A DNA stretch of 64,000 nt from Acidimicrobiia bacterium (lineage in GTDB: Bacteria; Actinomycetota; Acidimicrobiia; IMCC26256; PALSA-610). The stretch spans positions 2,033,965 through 2,097,964 of the forward strand of contig BPGH01000001.1 in the NCBI GenBank assembly GCA_026002935.1. The letters run 5' to 3'. How positions within the stretch are numbered: the first letter of the stretch is position 1; each line of letters opens with the position of its first letter. The notes below the pieces were generated by a model. It ran no database searches. It was not told where the DNA came from and saw only the letters and a program-made list of their open reading frames with translations. The translations under genes were made by a program, and so were the position numbers. Shown here one piece after another: positions 23,196 to 35,236 of the stretch.

Positions 23196-26100
23196 GCACG
23201 GTCGCGGTGCGCGCGCCGGCGCGGCGCGCCCCCGGGGTGGCGGGCGCACCGCGGCGGCGCTCGGTCGCGCAGCACCTGGCGCTCGCCCTGGTCGCCTACG
23301 TCCCGGTGCTCGCGACCGCGCCCGGCCGCGTGGCCGCCGACACGAAGCAGTACCTGTACCTGGACCCCGGTCGCCTGCTGGGACGGGCCGTCACCATGTG
23401 GGACCCCAACGTGGGGATGGGGACGGTCACGCACCAGACGATCGGCTACCTGTTCCCGATGGGCCCCTTCTACTGGGGCCTCGAACGGCTCGGCGCGCCC
23501 GACTGGGTCGCGCAGCGCCTGTGGCTCGGGTCCATCGTGTTCGCGGCGGGCGCCGGGCGTCCTCGCGCTGATGCGCACCTTCGGGCTGCGGGGCCCCGGC
23601 GTCGTGGTCGCCGCGCTCGCCTACATGCTCTCGCCGTACTCGCTCGACTACGCGGCGCGCATCTCGGTGCTGCTGCTCCCGTGGGCGGCGCTGCCGTGGA
23701 TGATCGCGCTGGTGCGGAAGGCGCTGCGCGACGGCGGGTGGCGCTACCCGGCGATCTTCGCACTGGTCGTGCAGGTGGTGGGCGGCGTCAACGCGACGGC
23801 GCTCATCTTCGCCGGGGTCGGCCCGGTCCTGTGGGTCGCGTACTCGTGGGCGCTCGCGCGCGACGTCGACTGGCGGCGCGCGCTCGGGGTCACGCTCAGG
23901 ACGGGGGTGCTGACCGTCGCGGCGTCGCTGTGGTGGATCGCCGGGCTGTCGATCCAGGGCGGCTACGGCCTCAACATCCTCCGCTACACCGAGACGGTGG
24001 AGGCGGTCGCGCGCACCTCGACGCCGAACGAGGTGCTGCGGGGGCTCGGCTACTGGTTCTTCTACGGGCAGGACCGGCTCGGTCCGTGGATCGAGGCGGC
24101 GGAGAACTACACGCAACGGCCGGTCGTGCTCTTCGCGGGGTACGCGTTGGCGAGCCTCGCGCTGGCGGCCGCAACGCTGGTGCGGTGGCGCCACCGGGCG
24201 TACTTCGTGCTGGCGCTCCTCGCGGGCGTGGTCATCGCGGTCGGTGCGCACCCCTACGCCAGCCCGACCCCGCTCGGCGCCGTGTTCAAGGCCTTCGCCA
24301 CCACGTCCACCGCGGGGCTCGCGCTGCGCAGCACGGCGCGCGCGGTGCCGCTGGTGGTGCTCGCGGTGGCGGTGCTCCTCGGCGTGGGGACCGGCGCGGT
24401 GCACGACGCGCTCCGCCGCAACGGCCGCCCGCTCCTCGCGGGCGCGTCCGTCGGTCTCGTCACGGTCCTCGTGCTCGTCAACTTCCCCGCGCTCGTCGAC
24501 GGCACCTGGTACGGGGAGAACCTGCAGCGCGACGAGGACGTCCCCGCCTACTGGCTGGAGGCCGCCGCGCACCTCGACGCGGGGGACCACTCGACCCGTG
24601 TGCTCGAACTGCCGGGCGCCGACTTCGCGTCCTACCGCTGGGGCAACACCGTCGACCCGATCACCCCGGGGCTCATGGACCGGCCGTACGTGGCCCGCGA
24701 GCTGATCCCCTACGGCGGTCCCGGCACGGCGGACCTCCTCAACGCGCTCGACCGGCGCGCCCAGGAGGGGGTGCTCGACCCCGAGTCGCTCGCGCCGCTG
24801 CTGGCGCGCATGAGCGTCGGGGACCTGGTGCTGCGCAACGACGTGCAGTACGAGCGCTACGACCTCGTGCCGCCGCGCGAGCTGGCCCGCGTCGTCGGCG
24901 CCGCGCCCGGGCTCGGCGAACCCACGGGGTTCGGCCCGCCCGCGCCGTCGGAGCCCGCGGTGCCCCACGAGGACGAGCGGTCCCTCGCGGCGCCGGCCGG
25001 CGAGCCGCCGGACCCGCCGGTGGTCGTGTACCCGGTCGAGGGCGCGCTCCCGATCGTCCGGGCCGAGTCGGCGGCGCGCGCGCCTGTTGGTGGCGGGCGA
25101 CGGCGAGGGGCTCGTCGACGCCGCGGCGGTCGGCCTGCTCGACCGCGCCGGGATCGTCCAGTACGCCGCCTCCTTCACCGACCCCGACGCGCTGGCGGCC
25201 GCCGTCGGCGACGACACCGTCCTCGTGCTCACCGACTCGAACCGCCGCCGGGCCCGCCGCTGGACCTCGGTGCGCGACAACCTCGGCGTGACCGAGCGGC
25301 CCGGCGAGGAGCCGCTGCGCGAGGACCTCGGCGACGCGCGCCTCGACGTGTTCCCCGGCGCGGGCGACGCGAGCCGCACCACCGTCGAGCACCGCGGCGT
25401 GCGCGCCGTCGCGGCGACCTCCTACGGGAACACGATCACCTACACGCCCGAGGACTCGGCGGCGAAGGCGTTCGACGGGGACCTCGGGACCGACTGGCGG
25501 GCCGCCGCGTTCGGGCCGGGCATCGGCGAGCGATTGCGCCTCGAGCTCGACGGCGCGATCACCACGGATCACGTGAACCTCGTGCAGCCGCAGGTGCGGT
25601 CGCGCGACCGGTACGTGACCGAGGTGGAGCTGCGCTTCGACGGCGGGGACCCCGTACGGGTGCGGCTCGACGCGTCGTCGCGCACGCCGAGCGGCCAGAC
25701 CGTGTGGTTCGGGCGGCGGGCGTTCGAGGTGCTGGAGATCGAGATCACGGACCTGAACGTGGGCGAGCGGCGCCTCCACGGCGGCGCGAACGCGGTCGGG
25801 TTCGCGGAGGTCCGCCTGCGCGACGAGTCGGCAGACCGCGACGTCCGCGTCGAGGAGGTCGTGCACATGCCGACCCAGATGCTCGACGCGCTGGGCGCAC
25901 GGTCGCTCGACCACCCCCTCGTCGTCGTCGCCTCCCGCGAGCGGATCGTCCCGGTGCCGCCGCGACGCGACCCCGAGCGCGCCATCCTGCGCGCCTTCGA
26001 GCTCCCGACGGCGCGCGACTTCGCGCTGACGGGCACCGCGCGCATCAGCAGCGAGGCCGACCACGAGGCGATCGCGGACGCGCTCGGCCTGCCCGGGGCC

Positions 26101-27603
26101 GACGAGGGCGGCGTCGACACGGACGCCAGCGAGTTCCTGGCGGGGTGCGTGGCCTGCCGGGCCGACGCGGCCGTCGACGGCGACCCCGCGACGGCCTGGC
26201 GGACGCCGTTCGTGCGGGTGCGCGGGCAGTGGGTCTCCTACGAGACCGCGGCCCCGGTCACGGTCGACCGGCTCGACCTCGCGGTGGTCGCCGACGGGCG
26301 CCACTCGGTGCCGACCCGCCTGCGCGTCGAGGTCGACGGCTCGGTGCGCGACGTGCCGCTGCCGGCCGTCGCCGACGACCCCCGGGAGGGCGCGACGGCG
26401 CAGGTGTCGGTGTCGTTCCCGCCCATGACCGGGCGCACGGTCCGGGTCACGGTGCTCGACGTGCGCGAGACGACGACCTTCGACTTCTACAGCGGCTCCT
26501 ACACCCTGGCGCCCGCCGCGATCGCCGAGCTCGGCGTCCCCGGGCTCGAGCGGGCGTCGGTGCCGAGACGGCTGCCGGACGGGTGCCGGGCCGACCTGCT
26601 CGAGGTCGACGGCGAGCCGGTGGCGGTGCGCCTGACGGGGACGCCGGCCGCCGCCGTGCACGGGGACGCCCTCGCGTTCGAGGCGTGCGGGCCTTCGGGC
26701 GCGCTCCGCCTCGGTGCCGGCGCGCACGAGATCCGGGCCGCGCCCGGCGCCGTGACCGGGATCCAGCTCGACCGGGTCGTGCTCGCGTCCGCGGCCGGGG
26801 GCGCCGCCGGCGAGGTGGCGGGCGGCCGGGTCACGGCGCCCGGCGGGGAACCGACCGCACCGCGCGTGCGCGTGTCGGAGGAGGGGCGCACCCGCGTCCG
26901 GGCACGGGTCGAGGGGGCGGACGGGCCGTTCTGGCTCGTGCTCGGCCAGTCGCACAGCCGCGGCTGGACCGCCCGCGTCGGTGGCGAGGACCTCGGCGAA
27001 CCCCGGCTCGTCGACGGGTACGCGAACGGCTGGTACGTGGACGGGGCGACGGGCGACCTCGAGGTGGTGCTCGAATGGGTGCCGCAGCGGCGCGTGTGGG
27101 CGGCGATCGGGATCTCGCTGGCGGCGGTCGCCGGGTGCCTCGCGATCGTCGCCGTCACGTGGTGGCGGCGGCGGTCGCTCGCCGCGTCGGCCGTCCCGGG
27201 TCCGGGGGACGCGGACGTGGCGCTGCAGTGGCCGGCGGCCCCGGTGCGCGCCCCGCTGCGGGCGCGCCTGCTCGTGGCCGTGGGCGTCGGGGCGCTCGGC
27301 GCGGTCGTGGCCGCGCCCTGGATCGGCGTGCTCGCCTTCGCCGCGGTGGTGGCCGCCTGCCGGTGGGGGTGGGCGCGCCTGGCCCTCGCGCTCGCGCCCG
27401 CGGTGCTCCTGGCGGTCGCGGGCGCCTACGTCGTGGTCGGCCAGGTGCGCTACGAGATCCCGCCGATCTTCGAGTGGCCGACGCTGTTCCCGCGCGCGCG
27501 GACGCTGGCGTGGCTCGCGGTCGTCCTCCTCGCCGGGCACACCGCCGTCGGGCTGCTCGCCGCCGAGCGACCGGCGCGGCGGCCGCCGACGCGGGGCGGG
27601 TAG
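23192..27603 (+). CDS. AftD-like alpha-(1->3)-arabinofuranosyltransferase family protein, DUF3367 (two frameshifts)
   Basis: With two single-base breaks repaired (near 23553 and 25085) this is a protein of about 1470 residues, close to the size of mycobacterial AftD (about 1400). The N-terminal membrane domain has DTKQYLYLDPGRLLGRAVTM and then WDPNVGMGTVTHQTIGYLFP, the first-loop motif of GT-C arabinofuranosyltransferases. A large extracytoplasmic part follows, with two discoidin (F5/8 type C)-like blocks AKAFDGDLGTDWRAAAF and AAVDGDPATAWRTPF, probably sugar-binding. The C-terminus has four or more membrane segments ending at LLAAERPARRPPTRGG. AftD adds branches to arabinan using decaprenyl-phospho-arabinose in mycobacteria; outside that group the glycan is not established. 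It is coupled to the GT4 gene. Confidence 0.85.
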
Positions 27604-27642
27604 CCTCGCCGGCGCCCGGTCCCGGGCGCGGAGGACGACGCC

Positions 27643-28656
27643 ATGCGCACGAGCGACACCATCACGTCCCCGGACGGGACGTTCCGGCTCGACCCCGCGG
27701 ACTTCGCCGCCCAGACCGGCTGGGAGCTGAAGCCGCAGGGCCTGTGCCGCGGGGACGCCTGCATCCCCGTGCGCGACCGCGGCGATCTGGTGGTCGGGGG
27801 CCGGGTCGACGTGCGCGCGTTCGCCGTGCTCACGGGCCGCCCGCTGGCGCTCGACGAGGAGGCCGGCCTCGCGGTGCTCGGGGTCGCGTCGGCCGAGCGC
27901 GCGGCCGAACGGGCGGCGATGGTGGTCGAGGACTTCGAGCTGCCGACCGCCGACGGCGGCCGCTTCCGCTGGTCGTCGATCGGGCACCGAAAGAAGCTGC
28001 TCTTCGCGTGGGCCTCGTGGTGAGGCTGCCGGTACGACCTTCCCGGGTGGAAGGTGATCCAGGACGAGCTCGGCCCCCACGGCCTGACGGTCGTGGCCGT
28101 CGCGCTCGACGAGGCCGACGCGGCGCGTGAGTGGGTCGACGCCGCCGCGCCGAACTACCCGGCGCTCGTCGACGCCGACCACGAGCTCGCGGAGCTGTTC
28201 GGCATCGTCAACGTCCCGAGCGTCGTGTGGGTCGACGAGGACGACCGCGTCGTGCGCCCGCCGGTGATCGCGCCGGTCGACGACCTCTGGCGGGAGTTCA
28301 CCGGCATCGACTCCTCGGTGCACCACGACCAGCTCCGCGCGTGGGTGCGACGCGGCGAACCGCCCTACCGGCACGACGAGGCGCGTGCGCGCGTGCGCGA
28401 AGCGTCGCCCGACGAGCAGCTCGCGCGCGCCCATCGCCGCCTCGGCGCCCTCCTGCGGCGGGCCGGCCGCCCCGATCGGGCGCTCGTGCACTTCGAGCGG
28501 GCGGCTGCGCTCGCGCCGATGGACTGGACCATCCGCCGGGGCACCCTGCCGCTGCGCGGCGGTGACCCGTTCGGGCCCGAGTTCTTCGAGTTCGCCGCCG
28601 AGTGGGAGGCGGCGGGCCGGCCCGACCACCGCAGCGCGGACCGCGACGCGGGCTGA
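27643..28656 (+). CDS. Redoxin-like protein with in-frame TGA at the redox motif: candidate selenoprotein
   Basis: The ATG at 27643 has GGAGGA upstream. The frame runs to a TGA at 28021 and continues in exactly the same frame to 28656; read through, it is 337 residues. The TGA is codon 127 in WASW-U-GCRYDLPGW, the position of the first redox-active cysteine in thioredoxin/TlpA-like proteins (WASWCGPCR type). Downstream the fold continues normally: TVVAVALDEADAAREWVDAA, YPALVDADHELAELFGIVNV and PSVVWVDEDDRVVRPP (thioredoxin-like with the cis-proline region VPS). A TPR-like tail has LGALLRRAGRPDRALVHFER. An N-terminal segment includes LCRGDACIPV. It is probably a thiol or peroxide oxidoreductase. 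The alternatives are a point-mutated gene or a base-call error. Confidence 0.75.
28021..28055 (+). promoter_or_regulatory. Candidate bacterial SECIS element after TGA
   Basis: The TGA (28021-28023) is followed after 13 nt by ACCTTCC (28037-28043), loop CGGGT (28044-28048) and GGAAGGT (28049-28055), a perfect 7-bp stem. The apical loop begins 20 nt after the TGA and has G at its second position. Published descriptions of bacterial SECIS elements call for a stem-loop directly after the UGA with G/GGU in the apical loop, about 16-37 nt downstream. Below the stem, G28031-C28060, G28032-C28059 and A28034-U28058 could pair with U28033 bulged. Confidence 0.6.
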
Positions 28657-28753: not shown

Positions 28754-30164
28754 ATGGGCGCGACCGACACCCGCCCGGCACGCCGCCGCGGCCGCATCCT
28801 GCTCGCCGTACTCGCGGCCCTGAGCCTTGCCGCCGGTGCGTGCGGTGGGGACGACGGGGCCGACGGCGACGGCGAGGCCACCGGGACGACGGCCGGGGGA
28901 GGCGGCGAGCTCACCGACAGCTTCCGGGGCGTCACCGCCGAAGCGATCAAGATCGGGATCGTGCTCGTCGACTACGACGCCATCGCGTTCGCGGTCGACT
29001 TCAACCGCGGTGACCAGGAGGCCATCGCGCGCGTGTTCGTCGACGCGATCAACGCGCAGGGCGGCGTCGGCGGCCGGCGCATCGACCCGGTGTTCGTCGA
29101 GTACCCGCCGATCCCCGGGCAGGAGCCGAGCCCGCTCGCGGTGTGCACCCAGCTCACCGAGGACGAGCAGGTGTTCGCCGTCCTCGGCGTGTTCATCGAC
29201 TTCACGGGGGAGGGGCAGCTCTGCCTCACGCGCGACCACGAGACGGTGCACATCGGTCACGAGCTCGAGCAGCGGTGGATCGACGAGGCGCCCCCCGGGT
29301 TGTTGCTGACGCCCGACACCACGAAGGAGGGCCGCGCGACCGTCCTGCTCGAGGTGCTCGCGCAGGAGGGCACGCTCGACGGCCGCACCGTCGCGGTCGT
29401 CGGTGACCAGGAGGCCGAACAGCGCATCGACGACCTCGTGGTCCCCGGGCTCGAGGACATGGGGGTCGAGACCGGCTCGACGGCGATCCTCTCGATCTCC
29501 GGCGAGGACACCTCCGCGGCGCAGTCCCAGCTCGACGGGTTCATCGAGCGCTGGAAGGAGGAGGACGTCGACACGGTCTTCCTCGCAGGCAACCTCGTGT
29601 CCGCCAAGCAGTTCGTGGAGAAGATCACAGCAGGAGATGCCCGACGTCCTGCTCGTCACGGACAACGCCGCGGTGCTCGGCGAGGCCCAGGACCTCACCG
29701 CGGCCGGTGCCGACCCGAATCCCTACGCCGGCATGCTGACCGCGGAGGGCATGACCCGCGCCGAACGCTGGGACGACCCCTCGCCCGCGCTGGCGCGCTG
29801 CATCGAGATCTACGAGGAGGCCACGGGCGAGGAGATCGTGCACCCGCGCGACATCGCGCCGGGTCCCGACGGCAAGAAGGCCGAGATCGCGATCGCGGTC
29901 GAGGACTTCTGCGGCGAGCTGGAGATGTTCCGTCAGATCGCGGAGAAGGCCGGCCCCGACCTCACCAACGACACCTGGGTGGAGGCGGTGAACGGGTTCG
30001 GGGAGATCGAGCTCGTGACGACGCCGCAGGCGTCGCTGTGCGAGGGGAAGTACGCGGCCGCCGACGACGCCCGGCTCGTCGAGTTCGACCCGTCGATCGG
30101 GGAGAGCGGCGACTGGAAGCCGCTCGGCGAGATCATCGACGCGAGCGGCGGCCGTTGCACGTGA
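28754..30164 (+). CDS. Branched-chain amino-acid-type (LivJ-like) substrate-binding lipoprotein (one frameshift)
   Basis: The ATG at 28754 follows the strong site GGGGGGAACCG. The N-terminus RRRGRILLAVLAALSLAAGAC is a lipoprotein signal with the modified cysteine at residue 30. The mature part is a type 1 periplasmic-binding fold: EAIKIGIVLVDYDAIAFAVD, GGVGGRRIDPVFVEYPP, VFAVLGVFIDFTGEGQLCLT and DGRTVAVVGDQEAEQRIDDL. The frame breaks near 29627, where VEKIT is followed in another frame by QEMPDVLLVTDNAAVLGEAQ and the protein ends at 30164. Total length is about 470 residues. It would deliver its ligand to the convergently encoded LivHMG/LivF fusions. The ligand is not shown; with acyl-CoA genes nearby it may be an organic acid or aromatic compound. 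Confidence 0.85.
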
Positions 30165-33038: not shown

Positions 33039-35236
33039 CAGCCGCCCTCGACCCCGAAGAAGACCGCACGCGCGAGGTCGTCGCGCTCGAGCAGGTCCGC
33101 GGTGGGGCCCTCGAACCGGACCGCGCCCTTCTCGAGGAACACCGCCCGGTCCGCGATCGCGAGCGCGACGTTGAGGGACTGCTCGACGATGATCATCGCC
33201 TGGCCCTCCGCCTTGAGGAGCTCGACGACCTCGAGCATCCGCTGGACGACGACGGGCGCGAGCCCGAGCGACAGCTCGTCGATGCACAGGATTCGCGGCC
33301 GGTGCACCAGCACCCGGCCGAGGGCCAGCATCTGCTGCTGGCCGCCGGAGAGGCTGCCGGCGGGCTGGCGGCGGCGGGACGCGAGCTCCGGGAAGATCTC
33401 GTAGACCCGGTCCACGCCCCCGTGCCGGGCGCCGTCGCGGCCGGCGAGGCGGGCGCTGACGGCGAGGTTCTGCGCGACCGTGAGGTCCGGGAAGACCCCC
33501 TTGCCGCCGGGGAGCTGGAGGATCCCCATGCGGGCGCGCGCCTCCGGCGCGACGTAGGTGATGTTGCGGCCGTCGAGCCGGACGACCCCGCGCTGGGGGA
33601 CCCCGAGGCCCGCGATCACGCGCAGGATCGTGGACTTCCCCGCGCCGTTGGTGCCGAGCAGCGCGACGGTCTCGCCCTGCGCGACCTCGAGGTCGACGCC
33701 GAAGAGCACCTGCACGGGGCCGTACGAGAAGTCGACGTTCGCGACCTGCAGCACCGGGACCGCCTCGTTCCGGCCGGTCCGCTTGTGGTGCTCCTCCTGT
33801 TCCTCGAGCAGCTCCTCGACGACGAGCGACAGGTCGTGTCGGATGAAGCGGGCGCCGTTCATCAGGAGGAGGCCGCCGATGACGCTGGTGGGGACCCCGA
33901 GCGCGATCACCGCGCCCCGCACGCCGATGGCGTCGGTGAGGAAGCCGGCGACGATGCCGCCGAGGAAGCCGCCGATGAAGAAGATGTACATCGTCGCCAT
34001 CGACGCGCCCATGCCGCGCAGTCGGTACGGAACGACGGCCGACATGACGGGCCCGACCATCGCGAAGGCCGAGGTCGTCAGGACGGCCTGGGGGATGCCG
34101 AGCACGACGAACCAGGCGCGGTTCTCGACCGTGTACTGGAGCGGCGTGAACAGCGCCGACGGCACGATCAGGGCGCCGACGACGGCGAGGGCGCGGGCCG
34201 GGTCGCGGCGGTAGGTGCGGTCGAAGTACCGCCCGACGTACGGCAGCACGGGGAGCGCGGCGACGCCGGTGAGCGACAGCAGGATCCCCCGCTGGAGCAC
34301 GTCGTCGACGCCGAGGGTGTCGTCCAGGTAGAGCGCCGCGAGGGCCGCCTGGCTGAAGAGGCCGAACCCGAGCGCGCAGAATGCGACGAGGACCGTCCGG
34401 ATCGTCGCGATCCGCTTGAGGCGGTCGAAGGCCGCCTCCATCGAGATGGGCGCGGGGTCCGTGTCGTCGATCTGCTCCCCGAGCACGTGTTCCTTCTCGT
34501 ACTGGCCCCGCGGCGGCTCCCGGATCGCGAACGCCGCGAGCGCGGCCACCGACACGGGGATCCCGAGGAGCAGCCAGGCCCACCGCCAGCCCTCCGTCCC
34601 CCCGGCGGCGTGCGCGATCGCGCCGACGAGGACGGGGCTCGCGAGGCCGAGCCCGTGGCCGACGAAGTTGGTCAGCGCCGACATCCGGGCACGCACGCCG
34701 ATCGGGTAGTTGTCCGCGATGAGGGAACCGTGGACCGGGATCGTGTTCGCCTTCGCGATGCCCGTCGCGAACCGCGTCCAGAAGAGCATGAACGCGTTGA
34801 CGGCGAGACCCGACAGGAAGACGAAGAAGCCGAAGAACAGGCTCGAGACGCCGACGATGGGCACCCGGCGCACCCGGTCGGCGAGCCAGCCCATCGGCAC
34901 GGCGCCCAGGACGAAGAACGCCGCGGAGGCCGTCGAGATGAAGACGATCGCGCCCTCGCTGATGCCGAACGTCCGGCGGATCTCGGGCGCGAGCACGTTG
35001 ATCGCGGCGCCCTCCAGCTCGTCGAGCGAGTTCAGCAGCGTGAGGACGACGAACATGTACGCGCCGCCGCGGCGCAGCCCCTCGCGCAGCGACATCGGCT
35101 CCGCGTTGACGCCCGGCAGGAGGTCGTCGGGGAACACGACCTGCTCGCGGGCCCGGGCGCGCTCGGCCTCGCGCGCCTCCTCCTCTGCGATCACGGCGGC
35201 GGCGAGCGCCGCCGCACCGACGTCGTCCGCGGGCAC
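33038..35236 (-). CDS. MFS transporter fused to LivF-type ABC ATPase
   Basis: The GTG at 35236 follows GGGGGGAACC. The 732-residue protein starts with a charged lead, then a 12-segment major-facilitator domain (about residues 55-460): LLNSLDELEGAAINVLAPEI, the motif A-like GWLADRVRRVPIVG, GTEGWRWAWLLLGIPVSVAA and AMVGPVMSAVVPYRLRGMGA. After a linker (EELLEEQEEHHKRTGRNEAV) comes a complete LivF ATPase: LLGTNGAGKSTILRVIAG near 525, LSGGQQQMLALGRVL and ILCIDELSLGLAP. The frame is uninterrupted for 2.2 kb, so the fusion is not an artefact. A LivF half must pair with a LivG half, which is the C-terminal domain of the next, coupled gene. Whether the MFS part transports independently or shares a substrate is unknown. 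Confidence 0.9.
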   Translation of the reverse strand: MPADDVGAAALAAAVIAEEEAREAERARAREQVVFPDDLLPGVNAEPMSLREGLRRGGAYMFVVLTLLNSLDELEGAAINVLAPEIRRTFGISEGAIVFISTASAAFFVLGAVPMGWLADRVRRVPIVGVSSLFFGFFVFLSGLAVNAFMLFWTRFATGIAKANTIPVHGSLIADNYPIGVRARMSALTNFVGHGLGLASPVLVGAIAHAAGGTEGWRWAWLLLGIPVSVAALAAFAIREPPRGQYEKEHVLGEQIDDTDPAPISMEAAFDRLKRIATIRTVLVAFCALGFGLFSQAALAALYLDDTLGVDDVLQRGILLSLTGVAALPVLPYVGRYFDRTYRRDPARALAVVGALIVPSALFTPLQYTVENRAWFVVLGIPQAVLTTSAFAMVGPVMSAVVPYRLRGMGASMATMYIFFIGGFLGGIVAGFLTDAIGVRGAVIALGVPTSVIGGLLLMNGARFIRHDLSLVVEELLEEQEEHHKRTGRNEAVPVLQVANVDFSYGPVQVLFGVDLEVAQGETVALLGTNGAGKSTILRVIAGLGVPQRGVVRLDGRNITYVAPEARARMGILQLPGGKGVFPDLTVAQNLAVSARLAGRDGARHGGVDRVYEIFPELASRRRQPAGSLSGGQQQMLALGRVLVHRPRILCIDELSLGLAPVVVQRMLEVVELLKAEGQAMIIVEQSLNVALAIADRAVFLEKGAVRFEGPTADLLERDDLARAVFFGVEGG

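Follow-up and report, generated by a model that had tools for sequence, protein, structure and literature searches.

An open reading frame on the forward strand of an Acidimicrobiia genome carries one in-frame TGA within a redoxin domain, which raises the question of whether this codon is read as selenocysteine (Sec) and, if so, what kind of enzyme the gene encodes. The locus lies within a stretch of 64,000 nucleotides, referred to here as the window. Inspection of the frame revealed an ATG start at 27643, with GGAGGA at 27630-27635 (7 nt 5' of the ATG), and a terminal stop, TGA, at 28654-28656. As claimed in an earlier, sequence-only reading of the window, the TGA at 28021-28023 is the sole internal stop of 27643-28656 (+) and both flanks are in the same phase; the active-site context at codon 127 is FAWASW-U-GCRYDLPGW. 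The gene and its parts are as follows.

27643..28656, +: very probable selenoprotein gene, 337 aa, with Sec as residue 127 (ATG start and a single in-frame TGA ahead of the terminal TGA; alignments with homologues cover approximately the full length)
27685..27912, +: N-terminal domain, residues about 15-90, without a Pfam or PDB match
27745..27762, +: Cys35-x4-Cys40 pair of the N-terminal domain, both residues invariant and also present in five loci that the scan for relatives had initially overlooked
27925..28254, +: ResA/TlpA-like thioredoxin domain (AhpC-TSA/Redoxin), residues 95-204 (PF00578, E 2.6e-14; ResA, 3e-20; Foldseek)
28021..28023, +: putative Sec-encoding TGA, codon 127 (all homologues that cover this position have either TGA or a Cys codon)
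28027..28029, +: codon of the partner Cys, Cys129 of the UGC motif (invariant in 20/20 aligned homologues)
28037..28055, +: predicted bacterial SECIS (bSECIS) hairpin, 7-bp stem and CGGGU loop, the apical loop 20 nt 3' of the UGA
28423..28518, +: C-terminal TPR-like repeat, residues 261-292 (TPR_2, 26.9 bits against a cut-off of 27, E 4e-6; helical in the model)

The sequence-only reading had attributed the broken genes of the window to indels, and two neighbours do continue in other frames. An AftD-like arabinofuranosyltransferase gene (PF11847, then CBM_AftD) at 23571-27603 (+), directly 5' of the TGA-bearing gene, is split between two frames near 25050-25087, and a periplasmic-binding-protein-like gene of ABC type (Peripla_BP_6, just below cut-off) at 28754-30164 (+) appears to change frame at ∼29400-29600. 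Farther along, at 33041-35236 (-), one ORF joins MFS transporter and ABC ATPase domains; it is an unusual fusion, or else an indel has merged two adjacent genes. A search for conserved gene neighbourhoods gave none that takes in the window.

Among 100 related genomes, many contained close relatives of the gene, mostly with one TGA within the match. Scanning 84,980 species genomes yielded 289 stretches encoding relatives, of which 80 were kept; these came mainly from metagenome-assembled genomes (MAGs) of Acidimicrobiia and other Actinomycetota and from some MAGs labelled Deltaproteobacteria, together with isolates, among which Aquihabitans sp. G128 and Nocardioides are examples with Cys forms. 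At codon 127, homologues were restricted to TGA or Cys: the codon aligned to 28021 was TGA, TGC or TGT in 110 distinct sequences (obtained in part with a filter on the motif [UC]GC), and no other residue was seen. As a check on this filter, five full-length loci that it had missed were examined, and all five had a stop codon at the site. The proportions of Sec and Cys forms are shaped by the search patterns and the motif filter and are not a census. Dozens of independent assemblies, from Acidimicrobiia and in some cases assigned to Myxococcota, share the TGA at codon 127, and the tree requires at least 8 changes between Sec and Cys. One MAG titled Bifidobacterium breve (L092, CAMBEL010000076.1) carries a gene of the same clade (clade A, see below) whose scanned site is identical to that of Acidimicrobiia-like relatives, and its label looks wrong. 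A second TGA-bearing redoxin match (L052) was rejected, being an ordinary Cys glutathione-peroxidase-like gene.

The source genome assembly (3.45 Mb, 4 contigs, 85% complete) was found to contain tRNA-Sec, selB, selA and selD. The tRNA-Sec gene, at C1:697330-697421, scored 73.4 bits, above the Rfam cut-off, and was called by ARAGORN as SeC with anticodon TCA. The selB gene is an open frame at C1:656867-658831, and selD lies at C1:898776-899708 (407 bits). Adjoining selB is selA (G000:C1:658645-659999, minus strand, locus L054), which is frame-broken by two changes, away and back; these are probably assembly indels, as suggested by the frame changes in neighbouring genes of the window. No in-frame TGA was present in the matches to Fdh-alpha homologues of the source genome.

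Among 45 genomes of known form, selB or tRNA-Sec was detected in 36 of the 37 with the TGA form and in 1 of the 8 with the Cys form (Fisher p 1.4e-6, a value that is only a guide because the genomes are related). The exception with the TGA form (G019) is 70% complete, and neither selB nor tRNA-Sec was found in it. The exception with the Cys form (G049; 91% complete) keeps a full-length, high-scoring selB at G049:C418:3068-4945, and tRNA-Sec was not found there; this genome may have other selenoproteins or may be losing the Sec system.

In the region 3' of the TGA, dN/dS was 0.04-0.18 across 15 pairs of closely related genes with the TGA. The ratio was lower after the TGA than before it in 13 of the 15 pairs, equal in one (0.096 on both sides) and slightly higher in one. 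The window protein and the nearest relative with Cys are identical at 58/113 residues before the TGA and at 135/209 after it. These sequence comparisons show strong purifying selection on the part 3' of the TGA, which is accordingly predicted to be translated. A GTG-start ORF is present at 28054, which would permit two genes, 27643-28023 and 28054-28656, with a restart at the GTG; against this, the Cys forms are continuous single ORFs and the residues GCRYDLPGW right after the TGA are conserved. General readthrough with another amino acid is opposed by the exchange solely with Cys and by the tie to the Sec machinery, and the same two observations identify Sec as the likely residue. Restart and general readthrough, taken together, are considered highly improbable.

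Decoding of UGA as Sec in bacteria would be directed by a SECIS. The perfect 7-bp stem with a CGGGU loop that had been noted from the sequence alone was recovered in full: the hairpin begins at the 14th base after the TGA and consists of ACCTTCC (28037-28043), the loop CGGGT (28044-28048) and GGAAGGT (28049-28055), the stem pairing exactly. Published bSECIS criteria are a loop of 3-9 nt, an upper stem of 4-16 bp, a G in the first two loop positions, a UGA-to-loop distance of 16-37 nt and a minimum free energy (MFE) of at most -7.5 kcal/mol (PMC13188914). The hairpin lies within every one of these limits, with a loop of 5 nt, a stem of 7 bp, a distance of 20 nt and an MFE of -14.2 kcal/mol. When the protein was held fixed and codons were redrawn from local usage, the chance of a 7-bp stem at the site was 0.8% and that of any 7-bp SECIS-like stem was 1.1%. 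Folding energy was rejected as proof of a SECIS, being no better than that of shuffles (z = 0.14), and the case therefore rests on comparison between genomes, where the evidence is strong. An Rfam search of the gene gave no match up to E = 1.

The inner five pairs of the hairpin form in 84 of 85 TGA genes (L012 is a TGA gene with a broken pair) as against 9 of 25 Cys genes, and the loop start N(0-1)G[GU] is found in 85/85 and 19/25, respectively. The covariation score in TGA genes was 0.160, compared with 0.052 ± 0.015 in shuffles (0 of 500 as high), and exceeded that of every slid version of the structure. By contrast, the Cys genes showed no covariation (0.068 versus 0.060 in shuffles). Individual changes illustrate how pairing is kept. 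In L125, two stem pairs are flipped together (GTC...GAC), and in the window gene CTG...CAG has become CTT...AAG, such that a Gln-to-Lys change is matched by an altered Leu codon and the pair is retained. This CTT is the only one among 194 Leu codons counted in four genes of the window, and the rare codon opposite the Gln-to-Lys change provides a clean natural case of an RNA element constraining a coding sequence. In tree-based contrasts with Cys relatives, loss of the stem with the Cys form was favoured in 2.6 and opposed in 0 of 6 independent pairs on average, which is not significant. On the between-genome comparisons, the hairpin at 28037-28055 is predicted to be a SECIS.

These data also bear on a rival explanation, namely that the TGA is a nonsense substitution or a miscalled base in an ordinary Cys redoxin. 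Although other genes of the assembly do carry frame breaks, the TGA recurs in many independent genomes, in Acidimicrobiia and in some assigned to Myxococcota, purifying selection persists 3' of it, the hairpin covaries and the Sec machinery is present in the genome, and a pseudogene or sequencing error is hardly credible. Two conditions that the sequence-only reading had named as refuting Sec, a genome lacking selB and tRNA-Sec and homologues without Cys or Sec at the site, did not hold. We consider it very probable that the gene at 27643-28656 encodes a selenoprotein in which the UGA at 28021 is read as Sec. In the proposed mechanism, tRNA-Sec and SelB would decode this UGA, directed by the hairpin at 28037-28055.

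The product was modelled with high confidence over its whole length (pLDDT 90.8). Foldseek returned ResA structures as the best matches (E about 1e-9), with some peroxiredoxin (Prx) structures also matching the fold, and the nearest solved relatives by sequence and fold are of the ResA, TlpA and DsbE types. The TGA had been proposed to occupy the position of the first active-site Cys of thioredoxin/TlpA-like proteins (WASW-U-GCR), and profile alignment to the ResA CxxC motif bore this out, pairing Sec127 with the first Cys and Cys129 with the second, with one spacer residue fewer. The cis-Pro position holds an invariant Pro, P192. An acidic residue, Asp or Glu, is present at U+5 in all cases; allowing one deletion, it would match Glu80, a functionally important residue of ResA. 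The protein resembles ResA, TlpA and DsbE in fold and in the position of the catalytic site; it differs in having UGC where they have CxxC, and they lack the C-x4-C domain and the TPR tail. The gene thus falls outside strict ResA/TlpA membership (CxxC, thioredoxin fold and cis-Pro), the fold and the Pro being present and the site being UGC, one residue shorter, although its product would act in a similar way.

The extra N-terminal segment and TPR-like tail anticipated from the sequence are both present, at residues ∼15-90 and as a repeat at 261-292. The N-terminal domain had no significant Pfam match, and its best PDB fold match had E 0.75; assignment to a known domain was rejected as having no Pfam or PDB support. 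Modelled alone, it gave a pLDDT of 89.

The recoding evidence, the Sec machinery, the fold and the conserved residues are computational observations, from which we infer what redox reaction takes place, on which substrate, and what the N-terminal Cys pair does. The product would be a ResA/TlpA-like thiol:disulfide oxidoreductase. Oxidoreductases of the ResA, TlpA and DsbE types are usually extracytoplasmic; this product has no obvious signal peptide and is probably cytoplasmic. The catalytic pair would be Sec127-Gly-Cys129, in which Sec127 may attack a disulfide or peroxide and Cys129 may resolve the intermediate as a selenenylsulfide; the Cys35/Cys40 pair may pass electrons on or hold the N-terminal domain together. 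For CGC peptides, a reduction potential of about -167 mV, similar to that of protein disulfide isomerase, is quoted in PMC4316792.

The selenoprotein could instead act as a Prx-type peroxidase. Sec is well suited for reducing peroxide, the top Pfam match is AhpC-TSA, and some Prx structures match the fold. The family is also called Prx-like in the literature (PMC2398784). However, the nearest relatives by sequence and fold are ResA, TlpA and DsbE, the Thr that Prx proteins have three residues ahead of their peroxidatic Cys is replaced by A, S or G, and Pro is always found at the cis-Pro position. ResA/TlpA-type chemistry is therefore regarded as the likelier of the two, with reasonable confidence, and Prx-type activity as a minority possibility.

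The best NCBIfam match of the gene was NF041054 (WAxxUGC_long, 'ResA-like WAxxUGC motif-containing protein'), with a score of 246.5 bits, below the cut-off of 300; the motif itself is present, as WASWUGC. In a tree of 109 proteins, two clades, A and B, were separated with 100% SH-aLRT support. Tested members of clade B scored 443-558 bits with NF041054, whereas tested members of clade A, including the window gene, scored 200-251. Clade A is mostly from Acidimicrobiia. The two clades co-occur in several genomes, and the source genome has A only. The window gene shares with the NF041054 family the C-x4-C N-terminal domain, the thioredoxin domain with UGC, the TPR-like tail, the exchange of Sec and Cys and a matching hairpin, and is 40% identical over 312 residues to one member; it differs in that its clade falls below 300 bits and forms a separate sister group with full support.

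It had been suggested that the family may not be among well-studied selenoproteins. This was only partly upheld. UGC-motif Prx-like or TlpA-like proteins have been listed since 2008, when 'Prx-like (UGC-containing)' selenoproteins were counted in GOS data (PMC2398784), and a 'UGC-containing TlpA disulfide reductase family protein' is listed in a 2026 review (PMC13188914); moreover, NF041054 models the sister group. What stands is that the gene's own clade scores below the cut-off of that model. Like the UGC-containing Prx-like/TlpA selenoproteins of the literature (PMC2398784, PMC9312934, PMC13188914), to which it is likened by description only, the window gene has Sec in a UGC motif within a domain of the PF00578 (or cd02966) type. 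A literature search found no papers naming 'WAxxUGC' or NF041054. The gene belongs to a kind of selenoprotein known from computational surveys, but no annotation model dedicated to its clade was found.

A more tentative proposal, which we regard as possible though doubtful, is that the clade constitutes a distinct selenoenzyme subfamily in which the N-terminal domain, of unsolved fold, exchanges electrons between Cys35-x4-Cys40 and Sec-Gly-Cys, forming a self-contained relay unlike ResA/TlpA. Automated annotation tends to truncate or split genes of this kind, and clade A lies under the cut-off of the one NCBIfam model that would rescue them. A dedicated clade model would correct the gene in many mostly uncultured Acidimicrobiia and would define a widespread selenoprotein subfamily.
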